IMG/VR virus record: IMGVR_UViG_3300043774_000929
Location: 1 to 26,969 of that record
Strand: one strand, 5' to 3'
DNA from: a virus
DNA length: 26,969 nucleotides
This document shows, in pieces, positions 4,434 through 26,176 of this stretch. Under the pieces are notes generated by a model, which searched no databases, was not told the origin of the DNA, and saw only the letters and a program-made list of their open reading frames with translations. The position numbers and the translations under genes were made by a program. Each line of letters starts with the position of its first letter. Position 1 is the first letter of the stretch.

Positions 4434-5225
4434 ATGTCCCGTAAGCAACTCTCTGACCTCGACTTTGGCGGGGTCGCCCGTGTCCGCAACCTGCCGTCGC
4501 CGGTCAACCCGGATGAGCCGGCACGGCTGGCTGACCTGAACTCTGCCGTCGAAGGCCTGGCATGGAAGGACTCCTGCCGCGTCGCGTCGCAGACCAACCT
4601 CAATCTGTCCTCGCCTGGCGCATCGATCGACGGCGTGACGGTGGCCGTTGGGGATCGGGTTCTGGTGAAGGCTCAGACCCTTGGCGCCGAGAACGGCATC
4701 TACATCTGGAACGGCGCTGCGATCGCCATGACTCGCGCGCTGGACGCCAACACCGCGTCGGAACTGGAGCAGGCCGTCGCCACGGTGGAGGAAGGAACGT
4801 CGGCCGGCACCAGCTGGCGCCAGTCGGTCGTGAATTTCGTGCTCGACACCACGACCGTCACGTGGCTGCAGTTCGGTGCGACGGTGGGCGCGGCATCGGA
4901 GACCAGCTCCGGCATTGCGGAGATCGCCACGCAGGCGGAGACAGATGGCGGCACGGACGACCTGCGAATCGTCACGCCGCTCAAGCTCAACAACTGGACG
5001 AACAAGCCGCGCCGCGCACAAGCCACCATCGGGGACGGCAGCAGCACGCAGTTCGACGTCAATCACAACTTCGCCACCCGCGATGTGATCGTCCAGGTGT
5101 TCCAGGCATCGGGCAGCTACGAGCAGGTCAACTGCGACGTGAGCCTGCCCACCGTCAACACCGCGCGGCTGAACTTCGCCAGTGCACCGGCCAGCAACGC
5201 GTACCGCGTCGTGGTGATGGGTTAA
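4434..5225 (+). CDS. Fibre-like virion protein (263 aa)
   Basis: The N-terminus (about residues 1-40, DFGGVARVRNLPSPVNPDEP) looks like a virion-anchoring segment of phage fibres. Residues about 42-155 form a beta domain (DGVTVAVGDRVLVKAQTLGA, then ENGIYIWNG) that I know from many phage tail and baseplate fibres. A short linker typical of fibre stalks (SSGIAEIATQAETDGGTDD) follows, then a C-terminal beta domain with FDVNHNFATRDVIVQVF that parallels the end of the preceding gene. An AGGAG ribosome site lies 6-7 nt before the ATG. No catalytic motifs are visible. Whether it decorates head or tail cannot be told from sequence. Confidence 0.7.
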   Translation: MSRKQLSDLDFGGVARVRNLPSPVNPDEPARLADLNSAVEGLAWKDSCRVASQTNLNLSSPGASIDGVTVAVGDRVLVKAQTLGAENGIYIWNGAAIAMTRALDANTASELEQAVATVEEGTSAGTSWRQSVVNFVLDTTTVTWLQFGATVGAASETSSGIAEIATQAETDGGTDDLRIVTPLKLNNWTNKPRRAQATIGDGSSTQFDVNHNFATRDVIVQVFQASGSYEQVNCDVSLPTVNTARLNFASAPASNAYRVVVMG

Positions 5226-11059: not shown

Positions 11060-11260
11060 ATGACCCGACTCGTTTTGACGCGTCCGCACACGCACGCGGG
11101 CAAGTCCTACGGACCCGGTGACCGCATCGAGGTCGACGCCGACGCCGCCGAATGGCTGCTGGCGAACGACATCGCCGCGCGGGAGCCGAAGCCCGTCCGG
11201 ACTCCCACCGACCCATCCGTCGACCTTTCTCCCATTCAACGTAAGGAACCCAAGCAATGA
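11060..11260 (+). CDS. Small conserved phage protein, DUF7210-like (66 aa)
   Basis: The start MTRLVLTRPHTHAGKSYGPG, followed by DRIEVDADAAEWLLANDIA, matches a small family often found among phage neck and tail genes that I recall as DUF7210. The domain is a short beta hairpin plus a helix; the last 20 residues are a Pro/Lys-rich tail. The function is unknown. AAGGA lies about 8 nt before ATG 11060; an alternative ATG at 11051 overlaps the previous stop but has the site abutting it. It overlaps the tail tube gene by ATGA at 11257-11260. Confidence 0.7.
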   Translation: MTRLVLTRPHTHAGKSYGPGDRIEVDADAAEWLLANDIAAREPKPVRTPTDPSVDLSPIQRKEPKQ

Positions 11261-12009
11261 GCACCTATGCAAGTTTTCAAGGCCGAGTGTTTCTCGGCAA
11301 GCGCGACATCGCCGGTCTGCCGATCGAGGTGCGCTCACCCGGCAACGTGGCCGAGCTGAAGTTGTCGCTGAAGACCGACGTTCTGGAGCACTACGAGAGC
11401 CAGACTGGTCAGCGCTCGCTGGATCACCGGATGGTCAAGCAGAAGTCGGCGACCGTGAAGCTGACCATCGAAGAGTTCACCAAGGAGAACCTGGCGCTCG
11501 CCCTGTATGGCAACCACGTCGTCGGCACGGCTGGGTCGGTGACGGCCGAGCCCTTTGGCGGTGACACGCCGGTCGTCGGCGACCGCTACTTCCTCGCCCA
11601 CCCCAGGGTGTCGAGCCTGGTGGTGACCGATTCCGCCGGAACACCGGCGACGCTCACGGCCGGCACGCACTACACCGCCGACCTGGACTTCGGTGCCGTC
11701 CAATTCCTGGACACCACCGGCTTCACCGCGCCCTTCAAGGCGGCCTATGCCTACGGCGTGGTCACCGACATCGGCATCTTCACCCAGGCGCTGCCGGAGC
11801 GCTTCTTGCGCCTGGAGGGGATCAACACCGCCCAGGGCAACGCCAAGGTCCTGGTCGAGCTGTACCGCGTGGCCTTCGATCCGCTCAAGGAGATTTCCTT
11901 CATCTCGGACGACTACAACAAGTTCGAGTTGGAAGGCTCGCTGTTGGCCGACACGACCAAGGGCTACGACGCGGTGCTCGGCCAGTTCGGCCGCATCGTT
12001 CAGCTGTAA
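11257..12009 (+). CDS. Phage tail tube protein
   Basis: A 250-aa protein beginning MSTYASFQGRVFLGKRDIAG. It is mostly beta, with SATVKLTIEEFTKENLALAL near residues 65-85, an inserted Ig-like or beta-sandwich part around 100-170 (GTPATLTAGTHYTADLDFGA) and a return strand segment ending in FGRIVQL. This architecture and the position directly before the frameshifted chaperones identify it as the major tail tube subunit, which polymerises round the tape measure. Lambda gpV is 246 aa, but direct homology is not obvious by eye. ATG overlaps the upstream stop. Confidence 0.78.
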   Translation: MSTYASFQGRVFLGKRDIAGLPIEVRSPGNVAELKLSLKTDVLEHYESQTGQRSLDHRMVKQKSATVKLTIEEFTKENLALALYGNHVVGTAGSVTAEPFGGDTPVVGDRYFLAHPRVSSLVVTDSAGTPATLTAGTHYTADLDFGAVQFLDTTGFTAPFKAAYAYGVVTDIGIFTQALPERFLRLEGINTAQGNAKVLVELYRVAFDPLKEISFISDDYNKFELEGSLLADTTKGYDAVLGQFGRIVQL

Positions 12010-13253: not shown

Positions 13254-16200
13254 ATGGCCAATCGCATTTCCATCCTTGTCGCCCTCGAAGGAGCGGACGA
13301 CGGGCTCAAGCGCGCCGTCGCCTCGGCCGAACGCAGTCTGGGCGAACTCTCCACCACCGCCAAGACCGTCGGCGAGAAGACCACCAATGGTCTGGCGGAG
13401 GTGAAGGCCGGTGTCTCGGCGTTCTCCGAGCAGTTCGGCCGCGCCAAGACGCAGTTGGTGGCCTTCCTGGCGGCCTTCGAATTTGCGGGCCGACTGCGCG
13501 AGGTCATCGAACTGGCCGACGCGTGGAACCAGATGGGCGCTCGCATGAAGCTGGCCACGGCCGGGACGAATGAATACAAGGTCGCCCAGGCAGCGCTCTT
13601 CGAGATCGCCCAGCGCATGGGTGTCCCGCTGCAGGAAACCACCGCGCTGTACGGCAAGCTGCAGCAGTCGGTGCGGATGCTGGGTGGCGAGCAGAAGGAC
13701 GCCCTCACCATCACCGAGAGCATCTCGCAGGCCTTGCGCATCTCCGGAGCGAGTGCCACCGAGGCGCAGGCGTCTCTCCTGCAGTTCGGCCAGGCGCTAG
13801 CCGCTGGCGTGCTGCGCGGTGAAGAATTCAACTCGGTCGTCGAGAACTCACCTCGTCTGGCGCAGGCTCTGGCCGACGGCCTGAACGTGCCCATTGGGCG
13901 GCTGCGCAAGCTCGCCGAAGAGGGGCGCCTCACGGCCGACGTCGTAGTTCAGGCGCTGCTGTCGCAGAAGGACAAGCTGGCGGCGGAATACGCCAGCATG
14001 CCCGCCACGGTGTCGCAGTCCATCGAGCGTGTACGCAACGCCTTCGGGCAGTGGGTGCAGAAGATGGACGAGTCCACCGGCATGACCAAGAAGCTGTCCG
14101 AGGCGCTGACCTGGCTCGCGCAGAACATGGACACGGTGATGAAGTGGCTCACCGTGATCAAGGATGTGGGCCTGGCCGTCCTGATCTACCGCTTCCTGCC
14201 CGCCCTGGTGACCGCTTGGCAAACCGCTGGGGCCGCCGCTGTGCTCGCGGCCAATGCCACGGTATCCGCGTGGGCGACCGCCAATCTGACGATTTCGGCG
14301 GCTGTGGCGACGGTGGGTGTGCTCAAGACTGCCTTCGTCGTTCTGGGCGCATTCCTGGTCGGCTGGGAAATCGGCACCTGGCTGTCCGAGAAGTTCGAGA
14401 TCGTGCGCAAGGCCGGCATCTTCATGGTGGAGGTGCTCGTCAAGGCGGTCGAGCAGCTTCAGTACCGGTGGGAAGCGTTCGCGGCCATCTTCACTTCCGA
14501 CACCATTGCCGAAGCCACCAAGCGGCATGAGGCCCGTCTGGCCGAGATGAACCGCATCTTTGGCGAGATGTACGCCGATGCGGCCAAGGGATCCGATGCT
14601 GCAAAGGCCGCGATGAACACCGCTGGCACCACCGCCGAGGAAATCGCCAAGCGGCTGGAAGCCGTGCGCCAGGGCACGCAGGAAGCCGTGGGACGTGGTG
14701 TCGAGGCTGTCCACACCGCACTGGAGAAGCTCAAGTCCCGTCTGGGTGAGGTCGAGCAGGCGGTCGGCAAGGCAACGCAGGTGGTCAACGATTCGACCGC
14801 CAAAATGGCCGAGGCCTACAAGGGGCTGACCTCGATCGTCGAAGCCAATCTGCAGCGGCAGATTGAGGCGGTGAAGGCGCGCTACCAGCAGGAGCAGGCA
14901 GCGCTCGACCTCAAGACCCAGTCGGAAACGGCGCTGATCACCAAGTCGACGCAGTTGCTTGGGGATGCATTGACCCAGCAGACCACGCTGCGCCGGCAAG
15001 CGACGACCGACACGCTCAAGCTCATCGATGATGAGTCCAAGGCGCGGATCGACGCAGCCCGTCGAGATGGGCAGACAGAGCAGGAGCGCTCGGCCAACGT
15101 CACCCGCGTCGAGAACGAGATCCTGGCGACCAAGCGCCAGACCATGGTCCAGGCGGCGGCCGAGTACCGTCAGCACATCGACCAGCTCAACGCCGAGGCG
15201 AACCGCCACCTGGCGGAGATCAAGCGTATCGAGGAGGAGAAGCGCCTGCTGTCGATGACGACGGAGGAGCGCATCCGCGAAATCCTGCGGCAAGGCATGT
15301 CCGAGGTCGAAGCGACCGAGGACCGCAAGCGTCAGATCTACGAGTACCAGTCCAAGGCGCGAGATGCCCTCGCTGCGGGCGAGTTGGAGCAGGCCCGCCA
15401 GTACGCGCAGAAGGCGATGGACCTGGCGGCGCAGGTTGCCAGCAGCCAGACCAACGAGGCCAAGCGAGCCGAGGAAGCCCGCAAGCAGTCGGAGCAGAGT
15501 GTCTCGCAGGTCACTCAGCTTGAGGCGCAGTCGCGGGAGGCTTACCGCCGGCAGGAGTACGAAAAGGCCGATGCGTTGATGCGTCAGGCCGATCAACTGC
15601 GAGCGGAACTGGCCCAGCGCACCAAGGACGCCGACACGGCGATCGCGCAGGGCAAGGACGGCGTCTACCAGGCCATCCAGCGCATTCGGGACTCGGAGGA
15701 GATCCTGAACAAAGCGTTGGACGCCGAGGCCAAAGCGCACCAGACGGCCGCGCAATCGGCGCTGACCGCCCGGGACCAGATCCGAGAGACGCTGACCCAG
15801 ACCGAGACCCAGATCGACCAGATCACGGCCAAGCTCAAGGATGGGCTCAAGGTCACGATCGACGCCGACACGGCGCGCTTCGATAAAGCGCTCGCCGACC
15901 TGGACAAGGCGGTGGCTGAGAAGCAGTTGCTGCTGTCGATCCAGGCCGACCTACAGGAGGCTGAGAAGAAGCTGCAGCAGTACGAGCAGCTGCTCAAAGA
16001 GGGCAAGACACTCCCGGTCGATGCCGACGTCTCCAAGGCGAAGGACGCACTGGCGCGGCTGAAGACCTACGCCGACCAGAACTCCCAACTGGAACTCAAG
16101 GTCGCCACCGAAAAGGCGCAGGCATCGATCACCAATGTCGAGGGCATGATCCGCGCGCTCGACCGCATTCAGACCGAGTCACGGCACCAGATCAGTACGA

Positions 16201-17315
16201 ACGCCGATGCGGCCCGCGCCGAGGTGATGAGCCTCAACGGCGCCAACACCTCCAGCACGCACACGATCTACGTGCAGCGCGTCGAGGTGAACGCCACCGG
16301 CGGTCTGGTCGGCAGTGGCATCCGTCGATTCGCCGAAGGTGGGGCCGTGGGCCCTGCGTTTGCGCGCATGAGCGGCGGCACCGTTCCCGGGTCCGGCAAC
16401 CAGGACACCGTGCCGCGCACGCTGGACGCCGGCGCATTCGTGATCCGCAAAGCGGCAGTCCAGAAGTACGGCGGTACGGCGTTGTCGCGCCTGGCCAATA
16501 TGGCGCGCACCTCTGCCGCTGCGATTGGCGTGGCCCGATTCGCAACCGGCGGCCCTGTGTTGGGCCGACTTGGCACGTCGGGGAACAGCGACGGCGGACC
16601 CAAGCGCAATCGCGAGGCCGCCGAGGCGTTGAAGATGATCGACCTCGGCCTGGACGGCATGAACCAGTACACCAACTGGCTCCAGTGGAACTACGGTGCG
16701 TCGGTCAGCCTGGACATGCGCTGGAAGACGATTGAGAGCTACGGCAAGCAGGCCCAGCAGGACCGGCGCGCCATCGAAGACTTCATCGGACGCAAGACGC
16801 TTACCTCCAACGAGCGGGGCCAGCTCGAACGCATCAAGCAGACCTGGCGTCAGGCGATGGCACAGCCGCTGCTCTGGGGCAAGGACCTGGAGCGCGACCT
16901 GATCGACTACATGGAGCAGAACCAGGGGCAGTTCTTCCGGCGCGGTGGTGTCGCGAAATCCGACACCATCCCCGCGATGCTCACCCCGGGTGAGTACGTG
17001 GTCAACAAGGATGCGGTGTCGCGTTTTGGCGCCGGGTTCTTCGAAGCCATCAACAACCTGACGGCTCCTGCGCAAGCTCTGGCGGGGCGTGCGATGGCGG
17101 GCATCCAGGGGTTCGCTACGGGCGGACTGGTGCAAGCGTCGTCGGGCTGGGTCAGCGGCGCGTCGCGCCCGGTGCTGCCGGCCGACAGTGGCTCGACGCG
17201 CACGGTGCGGGTCGAGTTGTCTGCGGGCGACCGGAAGGTCAACGCCGCAATCGACGCACGAGACGAGTCGCGCCTGCTGCAAATCCTCGATACGGCCCGC
17301 GCCAGGGCCGTCTGA
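13254..17315 (+). CDS. Tape measure protein
   Basis: A 1353-aa protein that sets tail length; at roughly 0.15 nm per residue it would allow a tail of about 200 nm or less. Residues about 50-265 are the tape-measure N-terminal domain (MGVPLQETTALYGKLQQSVR, then GEEFNSVVENSPRLAQALAD). Hydrophobic segments follow at about 297-376 (VGVLKTAFVVLGAFLVGWEI). A long Ala/Gln/Glu-rich coiled coil spans about 470-960, with three DAD-type repeats near its end. The C-terminus has two copies of a GG-DT-P-L-PGE/GAF-V-K motif, near 1025 and 1226 (DTVPRTLDAGAFVIRKAAV; DTIPAMLTPGEYVVNKDAV). It starts 3 nt after the upstream stop. Confidence 0.96.
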   Translation: MANRISILVALEGADDGLKRAVASAERSLGELSTTAKTVGEKTTNGLAEVKAGVSAFSEQFGRAKTQLVAFLAAFEFAGRLREVIELADAWNQMGARMKLATAGTNEYKVAQAALFEIAQRMGVPLQETTALYGKLQQSVRMLGGEQKDALTITESISQALRISGASATEAQASLLQFGQALAAGVLRGEEFNSVVENSPRLAQALADGLNVPIGRLRKLAEEGRLTADVVVQALLSQKDKLAAEYASMPATVSQSIERVRNAFGQWVQKMDESTGMTKKLSEALTWLAQNMDTVMKWLTVIKDVGLAVLIYRFLPALVTAWQTAGAAAVLAANATVSAWATANLTISAAVATVGVLKTAFVVLGAFLVGWEIGTWLSEKFEIVRKAGIFMVEVLVKAVEQLQYRWEAFAAIFTSDTIAEATKRHEARLAEMNRIFGEMYADAAKGSDAAKAAMNTAGTTAEEIAKRLEAVRQGTQEAVGRGVEAVHTALEKLKSRLGEVEQAVGKATQVVNDSTAKMAEAYKGLTSIVEANLQRQIEAVKARYQQEQAALDLKTQSETALITKSTQLLGDALTQQTTLRRQATTDTLKLIDDESKARIDAARRDGQTEQERSANVTRVENEILATKRQTMVQAAAEYRQHIDQLNAEANRHLAEIKRIEEEKRLLSMTTEERIREILRQGMSEVEATEDRKRQIYEYQSKARDALAAGELEQARQYAQKAMDLAAQVASSQTNEAKRAEEARKQSEQSVSQVTQLEAQSREAYRRQEYEKADALMRQADQLRAELAQRTKDADTAIAQGKDGVYQAIQRIRDSEEILNKALDAEAKAHQTAAQSALTARDQIRETLTQTETQIDQITAKLKDGLKVTIDADTARFDKALADLDKAVAEKQLLLSIQADLQEAEKKLQQYEQLLKEGKTLPVDADVSKAKDALARLKTYADQNSQLELKVATEKAQASITNVEGMIRALDRIQTESRHQISTNADAARAEVMSLNGANTSSTHTIYVQRVEVNATGGLVGSGIRRFAEGGAVGPAFARMSGGTVPGSGNQDTVPRTLDAGAFVIRKAAVQKYGGTALSRLANMARTSAAAIGVARFATGGPVLGRLGTSGNSDGGPKRNREAAEALKMIDLGLDGMNQYTNWLQWNYGASVSLDMRWKTIESYGKQAQQDRRAIEDFIGRKTLTSNERGQLERIKQTWRQAMAQPLLWGKDLERDLIDYMEQNQGQFFRRGGVAKSDTIPAMLTPGEYVVNKDAVSRFGAGFFEAINNLTAPAQALAGRAMAGIQGFATGGLVQASSGWVSGASRPVLPADSGSTRTVRVELSAGDRKVNAAIDARDESRLLQILDTARARAV

Positions 17316-17325
17316 AAAGCAAACC

Positions 17326-17733
17326 ATGCAACTGAAGAACCTCTCCGACGAGGTGGCCTTGCTGCTGCCCGACGATTTGCTGTGGACCGATGAACACGCC
17401 TGGACACCGGCGGTGGCATCCACGTCCTACCTGATCACGGGCGCGCTGCTGATCCAGTCGGCAACCCGGCAGGCAGGCCGTCCGATCACCTTGGTGGGCG
17501 CTGCCGACATGGCGTGGGTCACCCGCGCGACGGTCGAGCAACTGCTTGCATGGGCGTCCATCCCGGTCGGCGCCGCCACAGGGCGCTTCGCGCTGACCCT
17601 GGCGGACGGACGCTCCTTCACGGTGGCCTTCCGCCACGCCGAGACGCCGATCGAGTCGGAGCCCGTGCTGGGTTTCCCGGCGCGGGCCGACACCGACTTC
17701 TATCGACTGACGCTGAAATTCCTGGAGCTTTGA
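17326..17733 (+). CDS. Minor tail protein in the gpM position (135 aa)
   Basis: Directly after the tape measure gene. Beta-rich sequence with YLITGALLIQSATRQAGRPI, then RFALTLADGRSFTVAFRHAE and a final FYRLTLKFLEL. The repeated strand pattern is like N-terminal domains of distal tail proteins or gpM-type minor tail proteins that start tail-tip assembly. I cannot name a family. It sits 10 nt after the tape measure stop and 1 nt before the next ATG. The ATG at 17326 is preferred to an in-frame start at 17089 that would lie inside the tape measure gene. Confidence 0.7.
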   Translation: MQLKNLSDEVALLLPDDLLWTDEHAWTPAVASTSYLITGALLIQSATRQAGRPITLVGAADMAWVTRATVEQLLAWASIPVGAATGRFALTLADGRSFTVAFRHAETPIESEPVLGFPARADTDFYRLTLKFLEL

Positions 17734-17734
17734 G

Positions 17735-20700
17735 ATGCCGATTCATTCCGGCGACGTGAAACTGCTGAAGTCCGCCGTCATGGCCGACGTCCCCGAGGGA
17801 GGTGGTGCGCCCACGGGCATCACCATTGCCGACGGCGTGTCCAACGCCATCTTCCCGGACATCTCGGAACTCGATCGCGCGGGCGGACGGGTCAATCTGC
17901 GCAAGTCCTTCGTCTCGGTCCAGACCGATGACACCGACACCTACTTCGGCGCCAACGTCATCGTGGCCGAACCGCCGAAGGATCCGCGCGTCAGCGTGAC
18001 GCTGTTCTCCACCGAGCGCACCTTCGACACCCGCGAGCAGGCCCAGACCCGCATCGAGGCCTATCTCAACAAGGGGCCGGAATGGGCCGGCTACTTATTC
18101 GAGAACCACATCGCCGGCCAGCGCGTGATCCAGTTCTTCCAGCGCACGACCGACGCGATCCCCAACGTCGGACAGACGCTCGTCCTTATCGAAAACGAGG
18201 GACTGTCCACCCAGAAGGAGCAGTACGTCCGGGCCACTGCCGTGTCGTCGGTGGAGCGCACCTTCACCTACAACAGCGACCAGGACTACAAAGCCGCCGT
18301 CGTCACCGTCGATATCAGCGACGCGCTGCGCTACGACTTCACGGGCTCGCCGGCCACACGAACTTTCACGCGCGCCACGAACAGCACCAAGGTCCGCGAC
18401 ACGGTAGTCGCCGATGCGGGCACCTACGTGGGCGTGGTGCCGCTGACGCAAGCCGCTGCCGTGGGTGCATTCACCATCAAGGGCGCGTCGATCTACACCC
18501 AGTTGGTCCCCAGCGCCCAGACCGAGACGCCCATCTCCTTTGTGCCGCCCTACGCGGCGGCCGGCCTTCCGGTGCCTGGTGCGAGTCCGGTCAGCTACAC
18601 GGCAACCCACGCGTGGAACACGACGATCAAGTTCAACCTTCCCGGTGGCTGTCTGCCGGGCTCACTTGCCATCCAGACCGATGGCATCACCATCTTCGAT
18701 GACGCTGGCCTGCTCAAGACCGCCAGCGGCACCATCGGCACGATCGACTACGCCAACGGCATCCTGACCCTCAACTCGGGGTCGATGTCGAGCTCGAAGG
18801 CGATCACCTACACGCCAGCGGCGCAGATCCTTCGCGCCCCGCAAAGCTCCGAGGTGGCGGTCACGCCCGAATCGCGCAGCCAGTCCTATGTCGGCACCGT
18901 GATGCCGATCGCCCAGCCCGGCACCCTCTCGATCAGCTACATGGCGCAAGGACGCTGGTACGTCCTGTCCGATGGCGGCAATGGCTCGCTGAAGGGACTG
19001 GACGCGAGCTATGGCGCCGGCACCTTCAATCGCAACACCGGGGCATATGTCGTCACCCTGGGCGCGCTGCCGGACGTCGGCAGTTCGCTGATCCTCACAT
19101 GGAACGTACCGACGCAGGAGACCCAGCAACCCGCGACCACGCTCAAGGCTTCGCAGAGCCTCGTGCTCAATCCGTCCACTGGCCTCGCCGTGCAGCCAGG
19201 TTCGCTGTCGGTCACCTGGGAGTTCAACGGCACCAAGACGGCGACGGCCGCGACCTCGGGCGAGTTGTCCGGCGCGGCCAGTGGGTCGCTGTCGGTCGCG
19301 CAGCACCGTGTCGACTTCGCACCCACGGTTCTGCCGTCGGTGGGCACCCAGCTCACGGTCAACTACGTGGCGGGTCCGAAGCAGGAGGACTCCTTCGCCC
19401 ACCCGTCACGCAACGGCTCCGGTTCGGTTCCGGTCACCGCATCGCTAGCGTCGATCGAGCCCGGCTCGCTCGAAGTCGAGTGGAACACCCTGACCCAGAC
19501 CGCGGGCCTGGGCGTCTACACGCTCAAGCAGATCCAGGAGATGGGCATCGGGCTCAACAACTGGGTCGATCCGACGCAGATCGCCCGTGACGATGGTGCC
19601 GGGAACGTGCTGCTCAACGGCACAACCATCGGCTCGGTCGACTACGCCACGGGCGCAGTCGTCTTCAATCCCGACGTCACGGTCCGAATCCCGAGCCCGC
19701 GCTACAGCGCGCAGAGCATCGGCTGGGCCAGGGGCGTGGGGATGATGTACCGGCTGAACTACGCCGGCATCCAGTACATCTCCGCCCCGTCCCTGTACCC
19801 CAACGACGAATCGGGCTACGTCAAGCTGCGCTACAACAGCGCGGGCTCGACGAGCAATCACACCGAGACCTTCCAGTTCCAGCCGGCGTTCAAGCTGGTG
19901 CCAGGCGTGAATGCCCAGGTCGTGACGGGCACGGTTCTGTTGTCGATCACCGGCTCGCAGCCTTGGGGCGACAACGGCCAAGGCACGCTGCGTGAGTTCA
20001 CGACCAGTGGCTGGGTGACGCGCGGGACCATCAACTACCTGTCCGGCAATGTGGCGCTCACGTCCTGGACGGCCGGCGCGACCAACGCCATCACGCGCGC
20101 CAGTTGCGTGACCACCGTCGGCGAGAACATCTCCAGCGAGTTCGTGTTCCGCACCGGAGCGGCGCCGCTGCGTCCCGGGTCACTCTCGATCCAGTACGCC
20201 CGCGCCGTGGGTGGGACCCAGAGCGTCACGGCCGGCATCGACGGAGCAATCTCGACGACCGGGATCACCGGCAACGTCGACTACCAGACGGGCCTGGTGC
20301 GGGTTCGCTTCGGCTCCCGGGTCACGGCCGCCGGCAACGAGACCGAGCCTTGGTACGCCGCCGAGGCGGTTGGGAGCGACGGGAAGATCTTCAAGCCCGA
20401 GCCCGTGGCCGCATCCAGCCTGCGCTACAGCGCGGTCGCCTACAGCTACCTGCCACTGGATGCCGATCTGCTCGGCATCGATCCGGTGCGCCTGCCCAGC
20501 GACGGCCGCGTGCCGATCTTCCGACCGGGCGGCTTCGCTGTCGTTGGCCACACCGGGAAGATCACCACGTCGGTGAGCAACGGCCAGACGGTCGACTGCG
20601 GTCGGGTTCGACTGTCCCGCGTTCGCGTGGTCGGGCACGACGGAGCGGTGATCAACACCGGCTACACCACGGACCTCGACGCCGGCACCGTCACGTTCAC

Positions 20701-21334
20701 GAGCGTGTCGGGCTACAGCCAGCCGCTGACGATCGAGCACCGGATCGAGGACATGGCGGTCGTGCGCGATGTCCAGATCAGCGGCGAAGTCAGCTTCACC
20801 CGCGCACTCACCCACGAGTACCCGCTGGCCACCGGCGGTGATCCGTCGTCGGGGAGCTTCGTGGCCAGTGCACTGGTGGCCGGAGACCTCTTCGCGCGAG
20901 TGAGTCTGGTGTTCGATCAGGCGTCCTGGAGCGGAGCCTGGTCGGACTCGATCTCGGGCTCGGCCGCCACCGCAACCTTCAACAACACGCAGTACCCGAT
21001 TCGTGTCACGAACCGAGGTGCGCTGACCGAACGCTGGATCGTGCGCTTCACCAACAGCACCTCGTTCGAGGTGATCGGCGAGAACGTTGGCGTGATCGCC
21101 ACCGGCAACACCAGCACGGACTGCGCCCCGAACAACCCGGCCACGGGCGTTCCGTACTTCTACCTGCCAGCACTGGGCTGGGGCAACGGCTGGGCAACCG
21201 GAAACGTGCTGCGCTTCAACACCATCGGCGCGCAGTTCCCGGTCTGGGTGGTGCGCACCGTCCAGCAGGGCCCCGAGTCCGTGCCTGACGACAACTTCAC
21301 GCTGCTCATCCGTGGGGATGTGGACACCCCGTGA
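17735..21334 (+). CDS. Large repetitive virion structural protein (1199 aa)
   Basis: I do not recognise a named family. Residues 1-200 (MPIHSGDVKLLKSAVMADVP, then VNLRKSFVSVQTDDTDTYFG) look like a globular base domain. From about 300 to 900 there are tandem beta units, each opening with PG(S/T)L-x-(I/V) at residues 308, 395, 488, 576 and 814, with a diverged opening near 732. Most close with a G-(T/S)-(I/V)-DY-(A/Q)-(N/T)-G-(I/A/L)-(L/V) pattern. The C-terminal 300 residues include LTIEHRIEDMAVVRDVQI and end in DDNFTLLIRGDVDTP. No membrane segment or catalytic motif is visible. Position in the distal tail cluster suggests a tail-tip or side-fibre component. Confidence 0.85.
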   Translation: MPIHSGDVKLLKSAVMADVPEGGGAPTGITIADGVSNAIFPDISELDRAGGRVNLRKSFVSVQTDDTDTYFGANVIVAEPPKDPRVSVTLFSTERTFDTREQAQTRIEAYLNKGPEWAGYLFENHIAGQRVIQFFQRTTDAIPNVGQTLVLIENEGLSTQKEQYVRATAVSSVERTFTYNSDQDYKAAVVTVDISDALRYDFTGSPATRTFTRATNSTKVRDTVVADAGTYVGVVPLTQAAAVGAFTIKGASIYTQLVPSAQTETPISFVPPYAAAGLPVPGASPVSYTATHAWNTTIKFNLPGGCLPGSLAIQTDGITIFDDAGLLKTASGTIGTIDYANGILTLNSGSMSSSKAITYTPAAQILRAPQSSEVAVTPESRSQSYVGTVMPIAQPGTLSISYMAQGRWYVLSDGGNGSLKGLDASYGAGTFNRNTGAYVVTLGALPDVGSSLILTWNVPTQETQQPATTLKASQSLVLNPSTGLAVQPGSLSVTWEFNGTKTATAATSGELSGAASGSLSVAQHRVDFAPTVLPSVGTQLTVNYVAGPKQEDSFAHPSRNGSGSVPVTASLASIEPGSLEVEWNTLTQTAGLGVYTLKQIQEMGIGLNNWVDPTQIARDDGAGNVLLNGTTIGSVDYATGAVVFNPDVTVRIPSPRYSAQSIGWARGVGMMYRLNYAGIQYISAPSLYPNDESGYVKLRYNSAGSTSNHTETFQFQPAFKLVPGVNAQVVTGTVLLSITGSQPWGDNGQGTLREFTTSGWVTRGTINYLSGNVALTSWTAGATNAITRASCVTTVGENISSEFVFRTGAAPLRPGSLSIQYARAVGGTQSVTAGIDGAISTTGITGNVDYQTGLVRVRFGSRVTAAGNETEPWYAAEAVGSDGKIFKPEPVAASSLRYSAVAYSYLPLDADLLGIDPVRLPSDGRVPIFRPGGFAVVGHTGKITTSVSNGQTVDCGRVRLSRVRVVGHDGAVINTGYTTDLDAGTVTFTSVSGYSQPLTIEHRIEDMAVVRDVQISGEVSFTRALTHEYPLATGGDPSSGSFVASALVAGDLFARVSLVFDQASWSGAWSDSISGSAATATFNNTQYPIRVTNRGALTERWIVRFTNSTSFEVIGENVGVIATGNTSTDCAPNNPATGVPYFYLPALGWGNGWATGNVLRFNTIGAQFPVWVVRTVQQGPESVPDDNFTLLIRGDVDTP

Positions 21335-21398: not shown

Positions 21399-22664
21399 AT
21401 GACCGATCTCACCGTCAAATACTTCAACAGCGGGATGACGGGCGCTCCGCAGATCTCCAACAACTGGGGCGATCTGGTGACGATGCTCGACGCCTGCCTC
21501 ATCAACGGCTTCGCACTGAAGGCCATCGACACGCTGACCTGCACGGGTGGCATCGCGACGGCCACGATCAGCACCGGCCACGCCTACCAGCGCGAGCAAG
21601 TCGTGCAGATCACGGGTGCCGATCAGGCCGACTACAACGGCCAGTTCCGCGTGATCTCGACCACGACCACGACCTTCACCTTCGCCGTCAGTGGCACGCC
21701 GGTGTCGCCTGCGACCACCAGCACCAGCCTCACGGCCAAGGTTGCACCACTCGGATGGGAAAGGCCGTTCTCAGGAACCAACAAGGCGGCCTATCGGAGC
21801 AAGAATCCGCAGTCGCCGCAGAACTTGCTGCTGATCGACAACAGCCTGAAGACCCCGAACTACACGACGACCTGGGCCAAGTGGGCCAACGTCGGCATCG
21901 TGGAGGACCTGTCCGACATCGACACGATCGTCGGGGCTCAGGCGCCCTATGACCCGAACAACCCGACGCAGAACTGGAAGCAAGTCACGGGCAGCCAGTG
22001 GGGTTGGTACAAGTGGTATCACGCCCGAAACGCGCAGTACGAAAGCAATGGCGACAGTGGAGCGGGCGCTCGTAACTGGGTCCTCGTCGGTGACGACCGC
22101 CTGTTCTTTCTCTTCTGCACCAACGCCGCCGGCTATGGCTGGTACGGACGCAACTCGTACTGCTTTGGCGACATCATCAGCTTCAAGGCCGGCGACAACT
22201 ACGCAACGGTTCTGGGCGCTGATGACGCCTACTCGGGCATGAGCAATTACTGGAGCTATCCCGGACAGTACAACGGGTACGGGCTGTGCATGTCGCTGGA
22301 CTTCACCGGCAAGACGCTACTGCGCAACCACACGCAGTTGGGCAACCCGGTGCGATTCGGGCTGACGTCTCTGAACACCAACAACGGCCAGCAGGTGTGC
22401 GGTCGCGGCCCGACGCCGTTTCCCAATGGCGCGGACTACAGCCTGTGGTTGCTGCCGACCTATGTGCGCCAGGAGGACGGTCACATGCGCGGGATCATGC
22501 CCGGCATGCTCTGGATGCCCCAGGACCGCCCCTACAGCGATCAGACCATCGTCGACAACGTGGTGGGCCAGGCCGGGAAGAAGTTCTTGCTGGTGCGCAC
22601 GCAGTACAGCTCGGAGACCGAAGGCGCACAGATCGCCTTCGACATCACGGGGCCGTGGAGGTGA
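21399..22664 (+). CDS. Virion structural protein, aromatic-rich (421 aa)
   Basis: The protein starts MTDLTVKYFNSGMTGAPQIS. Residues about 45-105 form a small beta domain (YNGQFRVISTTTTTFTFAVS). The central part (about 200-310) is unusually rich in Trp, Tyr and Gly (QWGWYKWYHARNAQY, then GYGWYGRNSYCFGD), and the end reads GAQIAFDITGPWR. I recognise the general type as a conserved phage tail structural protein but know no function; the aromatic surface could bind sugar, which is speculation. An AAGGAAA site lies upstream of the ATG. The 64-nt gap before it contains nothing notable. Its stop lies inside the ribosome site of the next gene. Confidence 0.75.
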   Translation: MTDLTVKYFNSGMTGAPQISNNWGDLVTMLDACLINGFALKAIDTLTCTGGIATATISTGHAYQREQVVQITGADQADYNGQFRVISTTTTTFTFAVSGTPVSPATTSTSLTAKVAPLGWERPFSGTNKAAYRSKNPQSPQNLLLIDNSLKTPNYTTTWAKWANVGIVEDLSDIDTIVGAQAPYDPNNPTQNWKQVTGSQWGWYKWYHARNAQYESNGDSGAGARNWVLVGDDRLFFLFCTNAAGYGWYGRNSYCFGDIISFKAGDNYATVLGADDAYSGMSNYWSYPGQYNGYGLCMSLDFTGKTLLRNHTQLGNPVRFGLTSLNTNNGQQVCGRGPTPFPNGADYSLWLLPTYVRQEDGHMRGIMPGMLWMPQDRPYSDQTIVDNVVGQAGKKFLLVRTQYSSETEGAQIAFDITGPWR

Positions 22665-22666
22665 TC
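22657..22666 (+). promoter_or_regulatory. Unusually long Shine-Dalgarno sequence
   Basis: GGAGGTGATC matches ten bases of the complement of the conserved 3' end of bacterial 16S rRNA, one base before the GTG start at 22668. It also contains the TGA stop of the upstream gene (22662-22664). This extended match supports the non-ATG start. Confidence 0.7.
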
Positions 22667-22667
22667 C

Positions 22668-23753
22668 GTGACGTATCCGCTGAGTGACACCTTCGCCACG
22701 GCGCCGGGTGGTGGGTACACCACGCCGCTCGGGAGCATGACGGCGACCTACAACAGCACCCAGCAGGCGATCGACATCTCCGCGCCCAATGCGCAGTCGA
22801 TCCTGCGCTTCAACGAAACAGCCAGCGGGGACTTCTGGTTCGAAGCGGACCTCGAGTTTCTGACCGACCCGAGCGCTCGAAAGCATCTGGGTCTGTGGAT
22901 GACCACGGGCAATGGCTCTGAAGGCTATCGCTTCGCCCATATCGACGGCGCGTGGAGTGTGACGCGTTGGAACAGCGGCTTCGGTGACGGTGCTGCGGTT
23001 ACTGGCGGTCTGAACGACGGCGCCACACCCATCGCTGGCATCGTCGGCGTCGCCCCGACCTTCAACGTCGGCCAGCGAATGATCCTGCGTTGCGAGGTCA
23101 TCGTCGGCGCCTTCGATGCCGGTGGGGTGCCCTGGGCGCGGCTGATCCAGTTCAAGGCCGCTGGCGTGCTGATGTTCCAAGTGCTGGACGCCACCTACCG
23201 GGGCAAGCTCATACCCGGTGTGTTCCTCTATGGCGCGACGGCTCGCGTGCATGCCATCGCGGGCGCGACCCCGTCAGGATTGCCAGCCTTCCCGGCCAGT
23301 GTGTCGATCAACTCCGACAGCACGTTGGTTCACCTGTCGGGCGGGTCCACATCGGTCCTGCCCAGCCCGGAAGCCAACATCGGTGTGACCGCAACCACGG
23401 ACCTTGCGCGCCGCAACAGCCCGGCGTCCGAGCTGTGGAATCGCCTGGGTGGCTACGACTGCGACTTCCATGCCATCGGCGCGGGGCGCAAGAACATCCA
23501 CTTCAGCGGCCACGGTCGGATCGTCGGGACTGTCAAGGAAAAGGGCATTCCGAACCAGCCGCTCGTTCGCCGCGTGCTGCTGTTGAGCGAGAACGCCAAC
23601 ACGCTCGTTGCCGAGACCTGGAGCAACACGAGCGGCGACTACCAATTCGACTATCTCGATCGCGACCAGCGCTACACGGTCGTCAGCTATGACTACAAGC
23701 AGATGTACTGCGCGGTGATCGCCGACAACCTTCGTCCGGACGTCATGCCATGA
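22668..23753 (+). CDS. Tail structural protein with lectin-like and Ig/CarboxypepD-like parts (361 aa)
   Basis: GTG start. Residues about 1-190 (TFATAPGGGYTTPLGSM, then FWFEADLEFLTDPSARKHLG and VGQRMILRCEVIVGAF) have the strand pattern of a concanavalin/LamG-like beta sandwich. The C-terminal 80 residues (GRIVGTVKEKGIPNQPLVRR, then SNTSGDYQFDYLDRDQRYTV) match the carboxypeptidase-regulatory-like fold common in phage tail proteins. Together they suggest an exposed adhesion protein of the tail tip. Fold calls are by eye. It overlaps the next gene by ATGA at 23750-23753. Confidence 0.75.
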   Translation: MTYPLSDTFATAPGGGYTTPLGSMTATYNSTQQAIDISAPNAQSILRFNETASGDFWFEADLEFLTDPSARKHLGLWMTTGNGSEGYRFAHIDGAWSVTRWNSGFGDGAAVTGGLNDGATPIAGIVGVAPTFNVGQRMILRCEVIVGAFDAGGVPWARLIQFKAAGVLMFQVLDATYRGKLIPGVFLYGATARVHAIAGATPSGLPAFPASVSINSDSTLVHLSGGSTSVLPSPEANIGVTATTDLARRNSPASELWNRLGGYDCDFHAIGAGRKNIHFSGHGRIVGTVKEKGIPNQPLVRRVLLLSENANTLVAETWSNTSGDYQFDYLDRDQRYTVVSYDYKQMYCAVIADNLRPDVMP

Positions 23754-24145
23754 CCGTTGCCATCACTGTCGAACACAACGAGGCACGGCTGGCAGGCACG
23801 TTAGCCTTCCTTGACGCGGGTAGCAACCCGGCGCGGCTGCGGATCTACGGTGGTACGCGGCCGGCAACGCCCGCGACGCTGCCCAGCAGCGTGATGCTGG
23901 TCGAGATCAGGCTGACCAAGCCCGCGGGCACGGTCGCAGCGGGACTGCTGACGTTGACGCAACAGGAGGATGGACTCATCTCTGCCACCGGAATTGCCAC
24001 CTGGGCGCGCCTAGTGAATGGCAACGACGTGACCGCGCTCGATCTGGATTGCACGGGCACGGACGGGACCGGCGACGTGAAGCTCGCCAGCACCAGCCTG
24101 TACCTCGGCGGAGACGCGCGACTGGTATCGGCCATCCTGGGGTAA
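23750..24145 (+). CDS. Small conserved tail protein (131 aa)
   Basis: It begins MTVAITVEHNEARLAGTLAF and continues LDAGSNPARLRIYGGTRPAT, a pattern of small beta-rich proteins conserved in proteobacterial prophage tail clusters. The remainder is strand-rich (GLISATGIATWARLVNGNDV), with a final LYLGGDARLVSAILG. No enzymatic motif is visible. ATGA overlap with the upstream gene and a 3-nt gap to the next place it firmly in the operon. It probably binds near the hub protein encoded next. Confidence 0.75.
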   Translation: MTVAITVEHNEARLAGTLAFLDAGSNPARLRIYGGTRPATPATLPSSVMLVEIRLTKPAGTVAAGLLTLTQQEDGLISATGIATWARLVNGNDVTALDLDCTGTDGTGDVKLASTSLYLGGDARLVSAILG

Positions 24146-24148
24146 GCC

Positions 24149-26176
24149 GTGTCCGCCGATCCGATTGCGGCGACGCTGCAAGCAGCGCTTCCTGGTGTGC
24201 AAGCGAATGCGGAGATCGGACCACCGCTGGTCGATCTGGTCTTCGATCAGCCGGCAGCGACTGACGCTCACCTCATCTTCGGTGCCACCTATGTGGCGCC
24301 CCGAGACGACATCCGGCTGTCGGCCATGCTGCCGCTGCCGAGAGTCACCATCAAGTTCCTGCCCCCGGCGCGGGCAGAGCTGCTGGCCAGCCTTCCGCAG
24401 CTGACGGTTCGATCCCTGGTGCTGCGGCCGAGCGTGCCGCTGAACCTGGGAACTGGCGAGGGTGCGAGCCTGCCCGGCGTCGTGTTCTCCGGGGCGGTGG
24501 ACTACCTTTCCCGCACCCAGCGGCCGACGGTCGGACAGTCGCGGCAAGGGTGGCAAGTCGCCGACCGGACCGAGGGTGGTGCCGCCCAGAGCCAGCAGGA
24601 CGCGCTGGCCTCACGCGATGGCTGGCAGAACCGATGGGAGCGCGCGTCGGGTGCGCAGCAGGGCATCGAGCACCGGTTGCCTGCCGTGCTGGTGCCGACG
24701 GCACAGCGTAGCTGGACGCTGTTTCAGTCGGCGCAGCCGTTGGTCGACCGGACTTGGTTCGGCTACCAGGATGGCACCGCGATGGCGATGCGTCAGTGGG
24801 CCGCGTTTCAGGGGGCGGGACCGGTGCGCGACAGCACCTATTTCCGCCACCAGGACGGAGATCGCACCAAGCGTGCCTCTCGCATGGGGCCATGGCAGAA
24901 CGCGCGGCTGCGCACGGCCCGGCAGGGATCGAATTTCCAGAGCGCCACGCCAGACCGCCGGGGCTGGCGCGGCAGGTTTGAGGATGCCGTTCCGCCGCCG
25001 CCGGGGATTTCCATCTGGGTGGTCCGGCAGCCGCCGACGCCCGAGCCCTGCTATTTGCCCAGCGCCCACCTGCTGTTCGCCGCCACGGTGGCTACGGACG
25101 GGGCGCTGTTGTTCGTTTGCGAAAGGGGCACCGACCCGACGCCGCCGCCTGGCGAGTCGATCGTGGTGCCCGTCCGGAGGGTGTATTTCGTGATCAATGA
25201 CGTGACCCTGTACCGGGTGTCCGATGGGGCACCGGTGCCGGTCTACAGCCTGTCGCTCTCGCTGGACGCAGCATCCTGGGCGTGGGGCCTCGAGGCTTCG
25301 CTGCCCGCCAAGGCAGAAGGCCTGGTCGCGCCCGGCAATCCGGCCGGACCGGTCGAACTGCTCGCCCGGGTCAACGGGACCGAATTCCGGGTGTTCGCCG
25401 AAGGCATCAGCCGCGAGCGGGCATTCGGGGACGCCAGCATCCGGGTGTCGGGGCGGGGGCGAAACGCGGTCCTGGCGGCTCCCTATGCGCCCGTATTGCC
25501 GTTCACGAATACCGAGGGTCGCACGGCTCGCCAGCTGATGGACGATGTCCTGACGGTCAATGGCATCCCGCTGGGCTGGACCGTGGATTGGGGCCTCACG
25601 GACTGGAACGTTCCGGCTGGTGCTTTCGCCCACCAGGGCACTTGGATCGAGGCCCTGACCACGATCGCCAGCGCCGCCGGGGGCTACCTCATTCCCCATC
25701 CGTCGAACCAGACCTTCAAGGTGCGGCATCGCTACCCAGTGGCGCCCTGGGAGTGGGGTACGGTCACGCCCGACTTTTTGCTCCCGGTGGACGCCGTATC
25801 CCGCGAGTCGCTGCGGTGGATCGACAAACCCGCCTACAACCGGGTCTTCGTGTCGGGCCAGGACGCCGGGGTACTCGGCCAGGTGACCCGTGCGGGCACT
25901 GCCGGCAACGTGCTCGCGCCAATGGTGGTCGACCGCCTGATCACGGAGGTCGCAGCAGCCCGCCAGCGCGGCTTGGACGTGCTGGCGGATACCGGACACC
26001 AAATCGAGGTCAGCCTGCGCATGCCCGTGCTGGCAGAGACCGGGATCATCCAGCCGGGCGCCTTTGTCGAGTACCAGGATGGCACCGTGACGCGGCTAGG
26101 CATCGTTCGCGCCACGCACATCGAGGCTGGCATGCCCGAGGTTTGGCAGACGCTGGGAGTCCAGGGCTATGCATAA
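24149..26176 (+). CDS. Baseplate/tail hub-like protein with N-terminal Trp/Gln repeats (675 aa)
   Basis: GTG start 3 nt after the previous stop. Residues about 120-285 are a repeat region: S-R-x-G-(P)-W-Q occurs several times, and two exact 28-residue units begin at 187 and 215 (SWTLFQSAQPLVDRTWFGYQ; QWAAFQGAGPVRDSTYFRHQ). Residues about 350-675 look like a tail hub: SLSLSLDAASWAWGLEASLP, then GTWIEALTTIASAAGGYLIP, KVRHRYPVAPWEW, YNRVFVSGQD and a final EVWQTLGVQGYA. This is the pattern of gp27/gpD-like hub proteins at the tube end. The following OB-fold-like gene fits a hub-spike pair. The repeat region is unusual. Confidence 0.78.
   Translation: MSADPIAATLQAALPGVQANAEIGPPLVDLVFDQPAATDAHLIFGATYVAPRDDIRLSAMLPLPRVTIKFLPPARAELLASLPQLTVRSLVLRPSVPLNLGTGEGASLPGVVFSGAVDYLSRTQRPTVGQSRQGWQVADRTEGGAAQSQQDALASRDGWQNRWERASGAQQGIEHRLPAVLVPTAQRSWTLFQSAQPLVDRTWFGYQDGTAMAMRQWAAFQGAGPVRDSTYFRHQDGDRTKRASRMGPWQNARLRTARQGSNFQSATPDRRGWRGRFEDAVPPPPGISIWVVRQPPTPEPCYLPSAHLLFAATVATDGALLFVCERGTDPTPPPGESIVVPVRRVYFVINDVTLYRVSDGAPVPVYSLSLSLDAASWAWGLEASLPAKAEGLVAPGNPAGPVELLARVNGTEFRVFAEGISRERAFGDASIRVSGRGRNAVLAAPYAPVLPFTNTEGRTARQLMDDVLTVNGIPLGWTVDWGLTDWNVPAGAFAHQGTWIEALTTIASAAGGYLIPHPSNQTFKVRHRYPVAPWEWGTVTPDFLLPVDAVSRESLRWIDKPAYNRVFVSGQDAGVLGQVTRAGTAGNVLAPMVVDRLITEVAAARQRGLDVLADTGHQIEVSLRMPVLAETGIIQPGAFVEYQDGTVTRLGIVRATHIEAGMPEVWQTLGVQGYA

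Follow-up and report, generated by a model that had tools for sequence, protein, structure and literature searches.

In other siphophages, the distal tail protein (Dit) docks side fibres, receptor-binding proteins or spikes (PMC12724387). In JBD30 gp49, a large multi-domain protein, an OB domain decorates each of two tube-like domains, and residues 252-320 form OB domain V; no six-unit array is described in the part of the article that was considered (PMC11445458). Major tail (tube) proteins such as JBD30 gp44 and the YSD1 major tail protein (MTP) carry one decoration domain per tube subunit; according to the published description, that of gp44 is immunoglobulin (Ig)-like and spans residues 88-175. 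In the Salmonella phage Jersey, a domain compared with the Ig-like tube decoration (HDII-ins3) is inserted into the tip core protein, i.e., as a single insertion in a gpJ-type hub (PMC13243795). Here, we relate these systems to P0001, a putative 1199-aa tail-tip protein encoded by an ATG-start open reading frame on the plus strand, positions 17735..21334, of the IMG/VR virus record IMGVR_UViG_3300043774_000929, whose 26,969 nucleotides were analysed as a whole (the window); the domains and neighbouring genes placed below lie on the same strand. P0001 is ordinary in kind. New is its architecture, i.e., a tandem array of six related beta units at residues 303-868, between two conserved ends.

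The initial annotation, made from the letters of the window, had already described units of about 90 residues. The PGSL/PGTL openings at residues 308, 395, 488, 576 and 814 are present as claimed, and so are the closings GTIDYANG at 335, GSVDYATG at 633 and GNVDYQTG at 846; additionally, GTINY is found at 764. None of 20,000 protein shuffles reached the observed count of five PG[ST]L (mean 0.09) or of three G.[IV]DY.[TN]G (mean 0.0005), and the diverged opening suspected near 732 proved to be that of unit 5. The proposed self-alignment check also came out in favour of repeats: the best off-diagonal Smith-Waterman score is 92, compared to a mean of 48.7 (standard deviation 6.2, maximum 71) for 100 shuffles. 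Default BLASTP of the protein against itself gave the full-length match only, without internal repeats, and Tandem Repeats Finder listed no array within the P0001 gene on the DNA level. The units are thus well diverged.

For a block test, which we regard as the strongest of these checks, ten blocks were taken from an alignment of 40 homologues (A3) and their profiles compared with one another. The six array blocks (285-880) score 70-98.7% in all of their 15 pairings, whereas the 30 pairs with an end block reach at most 15.1%. Given the high array and low end pairs, we consider the six units related and the ends, by this test, unrelated to them. Beside this, a hidden Markov model (HMM) of the unit was trained on 204 units of the 40 A3 proteins, such that its matches in those proteins are expected. 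Support independent of the training comes from the block test and from HMM matches in the non-training sequences of ACPWH, AS1, PCA1 (L086), Y8A (L087) and Variovorax 110B (L301). As a control, the unit HMM matched 0/75 shuffled and 2/75 reversed sequences.

Based on the unit HMM and the block comparison, unit 1 (U1) covers residues 303-362 (18641..18820), U2 393-457 (18911..19105, with the highest conservation of the units), U3 485-545 (19187..19369), U5 726-784 (19910..20086) and U6 809-868 (20159..20338). U4 (residues 572-659, 19448..19711) holds an internal insertion and was delimited by its position-specific HMM and the block comparison; the general unit HMM covers 616-649 only. The unit length of about 90 residues agrees with start spacings of 90, 92, 87 and 83, but not with the step from U4 to U5 (154). 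The array is preceded by an N-terminal domain N1 (residues 1-95, 17735..18019), an OB-type domain N2 (96-226, 18020..18412) and a linker N3 (227-300, 18413..18634), the latter placed by an HMM for 216-275 and by alignment block limits. It is followed by C1 (880-1015, 20372..20779) and the conserved C-terminal domain C2 (1016-1199, 20780..21331). N1, C1 and C2 are the most conserved parts (0.52-0.53; mean family identity of N1 0.53), and the link between U4 and U5 is the least conserved (0.19).

The family was collected by tblastn, which found 35 phage records with relatives (20 with at least 80% coverage), and by scans of viral and genome contigs, which gave further loci. From 314 rows, we left out 18 without alignable start and 14 incomplete ones. 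The remaining 282 frames with start and stop fall into length classes of 690-712 aa (n=30), 809-824 aa (n=11) and 1139-1221 aa (n=235), and 6/282 are split or shortened (496-997 aa). Since the loci are redundant (e.g., 50 frames of 1183 aa), locus counts are not counts of independent lineages.

Within the long class, the unit HMM finds, at the threshold used, six units in 37 of 43 representatives and five in the other 6. In the long sequences tested, the position-specific HMMs match in the order U1 to U6; for the fifth place of Y8A (L087), the U1 model fits best. Across phages, units of the same position share a mean identity of 31-50%, compared to 23-29% for different positions, such that the duplications look old and the unit number stable. 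The expectation that length varies by unit number found no support within the long class. The suggested comparison of unit numbers in homologues shows a difference between distant classes and in the Acidovorax phage ACPWH, where the HMMs did not find U1. In the short classes (690-824 aa), one or two weak units are detected, and N1, C1 and C2 are still recognised by their HMMs in the sequences tested; HS6 (690-712-aa class) and MuM16-1 (809-824-aa class) thereby differ from P0001 with its six.

Some homologues are naturally divided into two genes, with breaks within or adjoining the array: the ACPWH gene is split near U4, that of Marinobacter AS1 between U2 and U3, and in Variovorax paradoxus 110B the first gene stops after U4. 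The two-gene homologues at L084:10001-13915, L088:8995-12613 and L301:8998-12687 consist of adjacent genes with three different break places. In a Rhodoferax contig (L283:9001-10674), the frame ends at 558 residues and similarity extends beyond the stop.

With regard to the C-terminal end, profile comparison likens part of C1 (residues 947-1001) to the Ig-like decoration domain of the tube protein of this phage. The latter is encoded at 11257..12009 (NCBIfam tail_tube_6XGR, E 8e-61, above cut-off; phrog_807) and is a clear homologue of JBD30 gp44 (99.9%, residues 8-250 to 3-255). The C-terminal block scores 90.5% against the window's single tube protein sequence; using hhalign, block 870-1040 scores 80.3% against the tube family profile and 90.2% (E 1.5e-6) against the middle part of that family. 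The aligned tube-protein stretch, about 104-161, corresponds to the decoration domain. In a first control with 100 column shuffles, the maximum of 133 exceeded the real score of 40.4, for which gap-rich columns are the suspected cause; with such columns removed, 0/200 shuffles reached the real C1 score (best 22.5). Independently of this, C1 in a structure model of the short class (451-522) can be superposed over 70 residues on the YSD1 tube protein 6xgr_A (its residues 102-199; root mean square deviation, rmsd, 2.2), the structure that gave the NCBIfam family of the window's tube protein its name. The Z of 6.7 lies below the level the tool rates safe. A score of 95.4% between block 870-1040 and block 1016-1199 was discarded as an artefact of their overlap.

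Whether this likeness extends to the array is suggestive only. All units together score against the full tube family as none of 200 column shuffles does, and single unit positions range from 0.3% to 57.9% against the tube middle part. Residues 471-779 of the long model give many antibody and T-cell-receptor domain rows at Z 5-6, which agree with an Ig-like fold and are too weak as proof.

At the N-terminal end, structure models point to an OB-type domain. The AlphaFold2 model of P0001, based on A3, is all-beta with a mean predicted local distance difference test (pLDDT) of 84.6. VIA-align pairs its residues 108-226 with 8rk3_D, a chain of the JBD30 baseplate, over 85 residues (Z 8.6, rmsd 2.3), and its residues 110-225 with T5 pb9 (Z 7.2), the matched part of which we take to be an OB domain. 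For the short-class model, built from 12 sequences, the best match is 8vjh_B, the distal tail protein of Chi, with Z 10.3 and rmsd 1.5 over 73 residues, followed by residues 250-326 of 8rk3_D (Z 9.8, rmsd 1.7, 74 residues). We equate 8rk3_D with gp49 given its length (554, gp49 567) and the agreement of the matched range with OB domain V; the solved-structure search had named chain U. In the short model, the aligned residues reach from 115 to 557, and a discontinuous OB domain would be read solely from these first and last positions. Among models of viral proteins, Foldseek reports 29 matches at E 0.001 or better; the 50 rows listed are mostly long high-rmsd alignments with template modelling (TM) scores below 0.15, and two unnamed proteins of 324 and 331 aa are matched with probability 1.00 (TMt 0.35 and 0.29). 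The sequence search against solved structures returned two insignificant matches for P0001 alone and none for the 40-sequence profile.

Our favoured reading, which we place on the edge between doubtful and probable, is that P0001 is a siphophage tail-tip scaffold of the distal-tail/baseplate type, anchored at both ends and bearing an Ig-like arm between them. The N-terminal part with its OB-type domain and the C-terminal part, i.e., the tube-decoration-like stretch followed by C2, would anchor the protein; the six tandem beta units, probably Ig-like, would loop out of the tip as an arm or collar. We propose an arm inserted into an anchored scaffold because the ends are conserved, the middle is variable and the two-gene forms break mid-protein, and a distal-tail/baseplate scaffold because distal tail proteins serve as docking sites in other siphophages. 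As in the Dit type, the gene is found between tape measure and hub candidate (see below), though a 135-aa gene precedes it, and the OB-type domain is like that of solved Dits, which is not exclusive to Dits. We infer the place in the tip, the anchoring of both ends, the looped-out arm and the attachment of adhesins, as well as any copy number of P0001 in the tip.

P0001 shares with JBD30 gp49 and the Chi distal tail protein the tail-tip gene order, the OB domain and the large multi-domain build; in contrast to gp49, no pair of OB-decorated tube-like domains emerges from its sequence. To the tube decoration domains C1 is alike and the units weakly so, with the difference that P0001 would be a tip protein with a series of units. 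In a bolder version, which we find doubtful, P0001 would be a ring protein in which a tube-decoration-type module was multiplied to six and inserted, perhaps inside the OB domain, between two anchor halves that fold together, such that a loop-shaped Ig-like arm is fixed at both ends. If so, the naturally split versions would imply that the halves associate without a peptide bond.

Several results weigh against the scaffold reading. The predicted TM score (pTM) of the long model is only 0.57, which makes the domain placement unsure, and the short-class model, with a mean pLDDT of 62.0, can be trusted only within about residues 90-550. In the long model, the top VIA-align row for the OB region is a capsule lyase (Z 9.9); in the short model, this region also matches lambda gpJ, a hub protein (8xcg_J, Z 7.0), and, at Z 6.9, a V-ATPase subunit; as it occurs in hubs, a V-ATPase subunit and a capsule lyase alike, the OB domain cannot fix the role. 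Following the warning of the tool, matches with Z below 8, here 6xgr_A and pb9, may reflect only a common arrangement. For C2 (1054-1164), the best row is the flagellar protein FlgL (Z 7.9), for which we offer no interpretation, and Foldseek of the whole model against the PDB gave nothing at E 0.001 or better. In profile comparisons aimed at the tube-like beta-sandwich ring domains of Dits, the N and C2 blocks score at most 2.6% against the JBD30 gp49 family, 1.9% against lambda gpM and 1.7% against the tube family; N2 reaches 15.4% against the single tube protein but 0.2% against the tube family. The tube-family score of C1 drops to 66.3% when block 870-1199 is used and to 36.6% for whole P0001, and all units score only 47.4% (E 1.9e-4, 30 columns) against the tube middle part. 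Finally, the gpM position is already taken by a separate gene, that of the 135-aa protein.

The first alternative is that the array forms the shaft of a side-tail or tip fibre, i.e., a rod that carries a receptor-binding end off the tip. Tandem beta units in a large all-beta protein would suit such a shaft, as would the missing U1 in ACPWH, and in the record of Marinobacter AS1 the homologues bear the annotation 'tail fiber'. On the other hand, the C-terminus is not hypervariable but conserved, C2 having a family-wide value of 0.53, the unit count of the long class is stable, and N1, C1 and C2 stay recognisable even where units are fewer. Moreover, Pfam, PHROGs and NCBIfam searches yielded no named fibre or adhesin family at the limits used, and no receptor-binding or trimerising C-terminal family in P0001. 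We therefore consider a fibre shaft unlikely. Of the former proposal of an extended tail-tip or side-fibre shaft, the tail-tip part gains some support, a homologue being present in virions (PMC8541194); a side-fibre shaft is not favoured, given that N1 and C1-C2 are best conserved and the OB-type domain is like that of distal tail proteins.

The next alternative concerns the neighbourhood of the gene. Upstream, the tape measure protein is encoded at 13254..17315 (Pfam TMP_3, E 9.4e-64), followed at 17326..17733, in the position of lambda gpM, by a 135-aa protein of phrog_4408 (no function given). The latter is the steadiest upstream partner: its homologue ends less than 150 bp upstream in 263 of the 276 loci that have at least 700 bp upstream. 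Its profile shows no similarity to lambda gpM (0.3%). Downstream, a set of 421-, 361- and 131-aa genes (21399..24145) separates P0001 from a 675-aa protein at 24149..26176 (phrog_6079 tail protein). The profile of this protein scores 63.7% (E 6.7e-5, 166 columns) against Mu gp44, i.e., gpP, the annotated baseplate hub, and a related protein of Psychrobacter phage Y8A carries the annotation 'Mu-like prophage tail protein gpP'; against lambda gpJ and JBD30 gp53, each represented by a single sequence, it scores 0.3%. Searches of PDB sequences gave chance-like matches only for the 135-aa and 675-aa profiles (best E 0.054 and 0.25) and none for the single 675-aa protein. Its similarity to Mu gpP makes the 675-aa protein a candidate hub present besides P0001. 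Given this separate candidate, the claim that the array protein replaces the lambda L-K-I-J set is not supported as it stands.

P0001 might nevertheless be the central hub itself, of lambda gpJ or LSH1 gp25 type, with Ig-like insertions and placed after a small distal-tail protein. Its gene directly follows a gpM-sized gene, as LSH1 gp25 follows gp24, lambda gpJ is among the matches of the short-model OB region (Z 7.0), and the Jersey hub has an insertion likened to Ig-like tube decoration (PMC13243795). However, the Mu gpP similarity belongs to the downstream 675-aa protein, and the P0001 profile scores at most 0.7% against lambda L, lambda J and JBD30 gp53, single-sequence targets that make this a weak test. 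Whole P0001 and its N, C, C2 and array blocks likewise remain at or below 1.0% against lambda L, I and J and Mu gp43-45, and P0001 and its blocks at or below 0.5% against JBD30 gp53. We thus regard a hub role of P0001 as rather improbable. That P0001 is the primary receptor-binding protein, recognising the host via a variable middle (about residues 650-675), appears very improbable: the lowest-conservation 20-residue windows do lie at 648-677 among 77 close sequences, but with a mean column conservation of about 0.57 these, too, are not hypervariable, and it is the downstream genes that differ in presence between loci.

Returning to the tail-tip scaffold, the 675-aa Mu gpP-like protein would serve as hub, and the variable downstream proteins (421, 361 and 131 aa) would be candidates for sitting on or near the scaffold. 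A hub profile match is found downstream of the P0001 homologue in 261/282 loci. For the 216 long-class loci with such a match, the distance, measured to the start of the profile match and not of the gene, ranges between 1148 and 6778 bp; 69 of these loci have, as judged by BLAST (E 1e-5), none of the window's three intervening genes anywhere in the locus. From this locus survey, we derive a constant set of tape measure, 135-aa protein, P0001 and hub candidate around a variable set.

With regard to the family as a whole, residues 1-1197 of P0001 match phrog_6128 with E=0, aligning to positions 1-1199 of the 1200 of the profile; the function of PHROG 6128 is unnamed. A second PHROG, phrog_9261, is matched by residues 711-1197. 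At E 0.1, P0001 had no match in Pfam or NCBIfam, and a Pfam scan of the 40 A3 members found two unrelated models, each matched by one member only. Phages of the two PHROGs carry the same family, with identities to P0001 of 35% (S1 gp19), 34% (Turba) and 27% (HS6 gp11) in alignment A1. In Stenotrophomonas S1, Pseudomonas Turba, Pseudoalteromonas HS6 and the Shewanella phage MuM16-1, the gene likewise follows the tape measure gene and a small one. MuM16-1 p45 is an 824-aa relative (L091; 31.6% identity over the C-terminal part of P0001) and the subject of the closest prior function statement that we found in the literature. According to PMC8541194, p45 was found in siphovirus virions by mass spectrometry, p45, p46 and p48 are possible tail parts, and the authors hypothesise receptor recognition for the five-gene set p45-p49. 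A description of the six-unit array was not found in the literature listings and article parts searched, for the most part of open literature. The domain map, the virion-backed homologue and the links to distal-tail OB domains and tube decoration thus offer a testable place in the tail for a family of unnamed function, and its length classes and two-gene forms provide natural variants for probing the role of the array.

Numerous phages and prophages, predominantly from Beta- and Gammaproteobacteria, carry the family. A megablast of window positions 1-24000 against phages gave no match; the loci closest to P0001 come from a viral contig (L067), from an uncultured betaproteobacterium (L240) and from a Burkholderiales genome (L248), with 97-98% in their best segment.

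Some minor observations concern the other proteins of the window. By eye, about residues 120-285 of the 675-aa protein look internally repetitive, with recurring W and Q-rich segments; the Mu gpP similarity falls later, at profile columns 295-466. The C-terminal stretch of the 361-aa protein (22668-23753), a candidate adhesin, is weakly CarboxypepD_reg-like (E 0.0027, below cut-off). At 4434-5225, the window encodes a member of the head decoration family phrog_2647, parts of which also match several tail-fibre and virion structural families.

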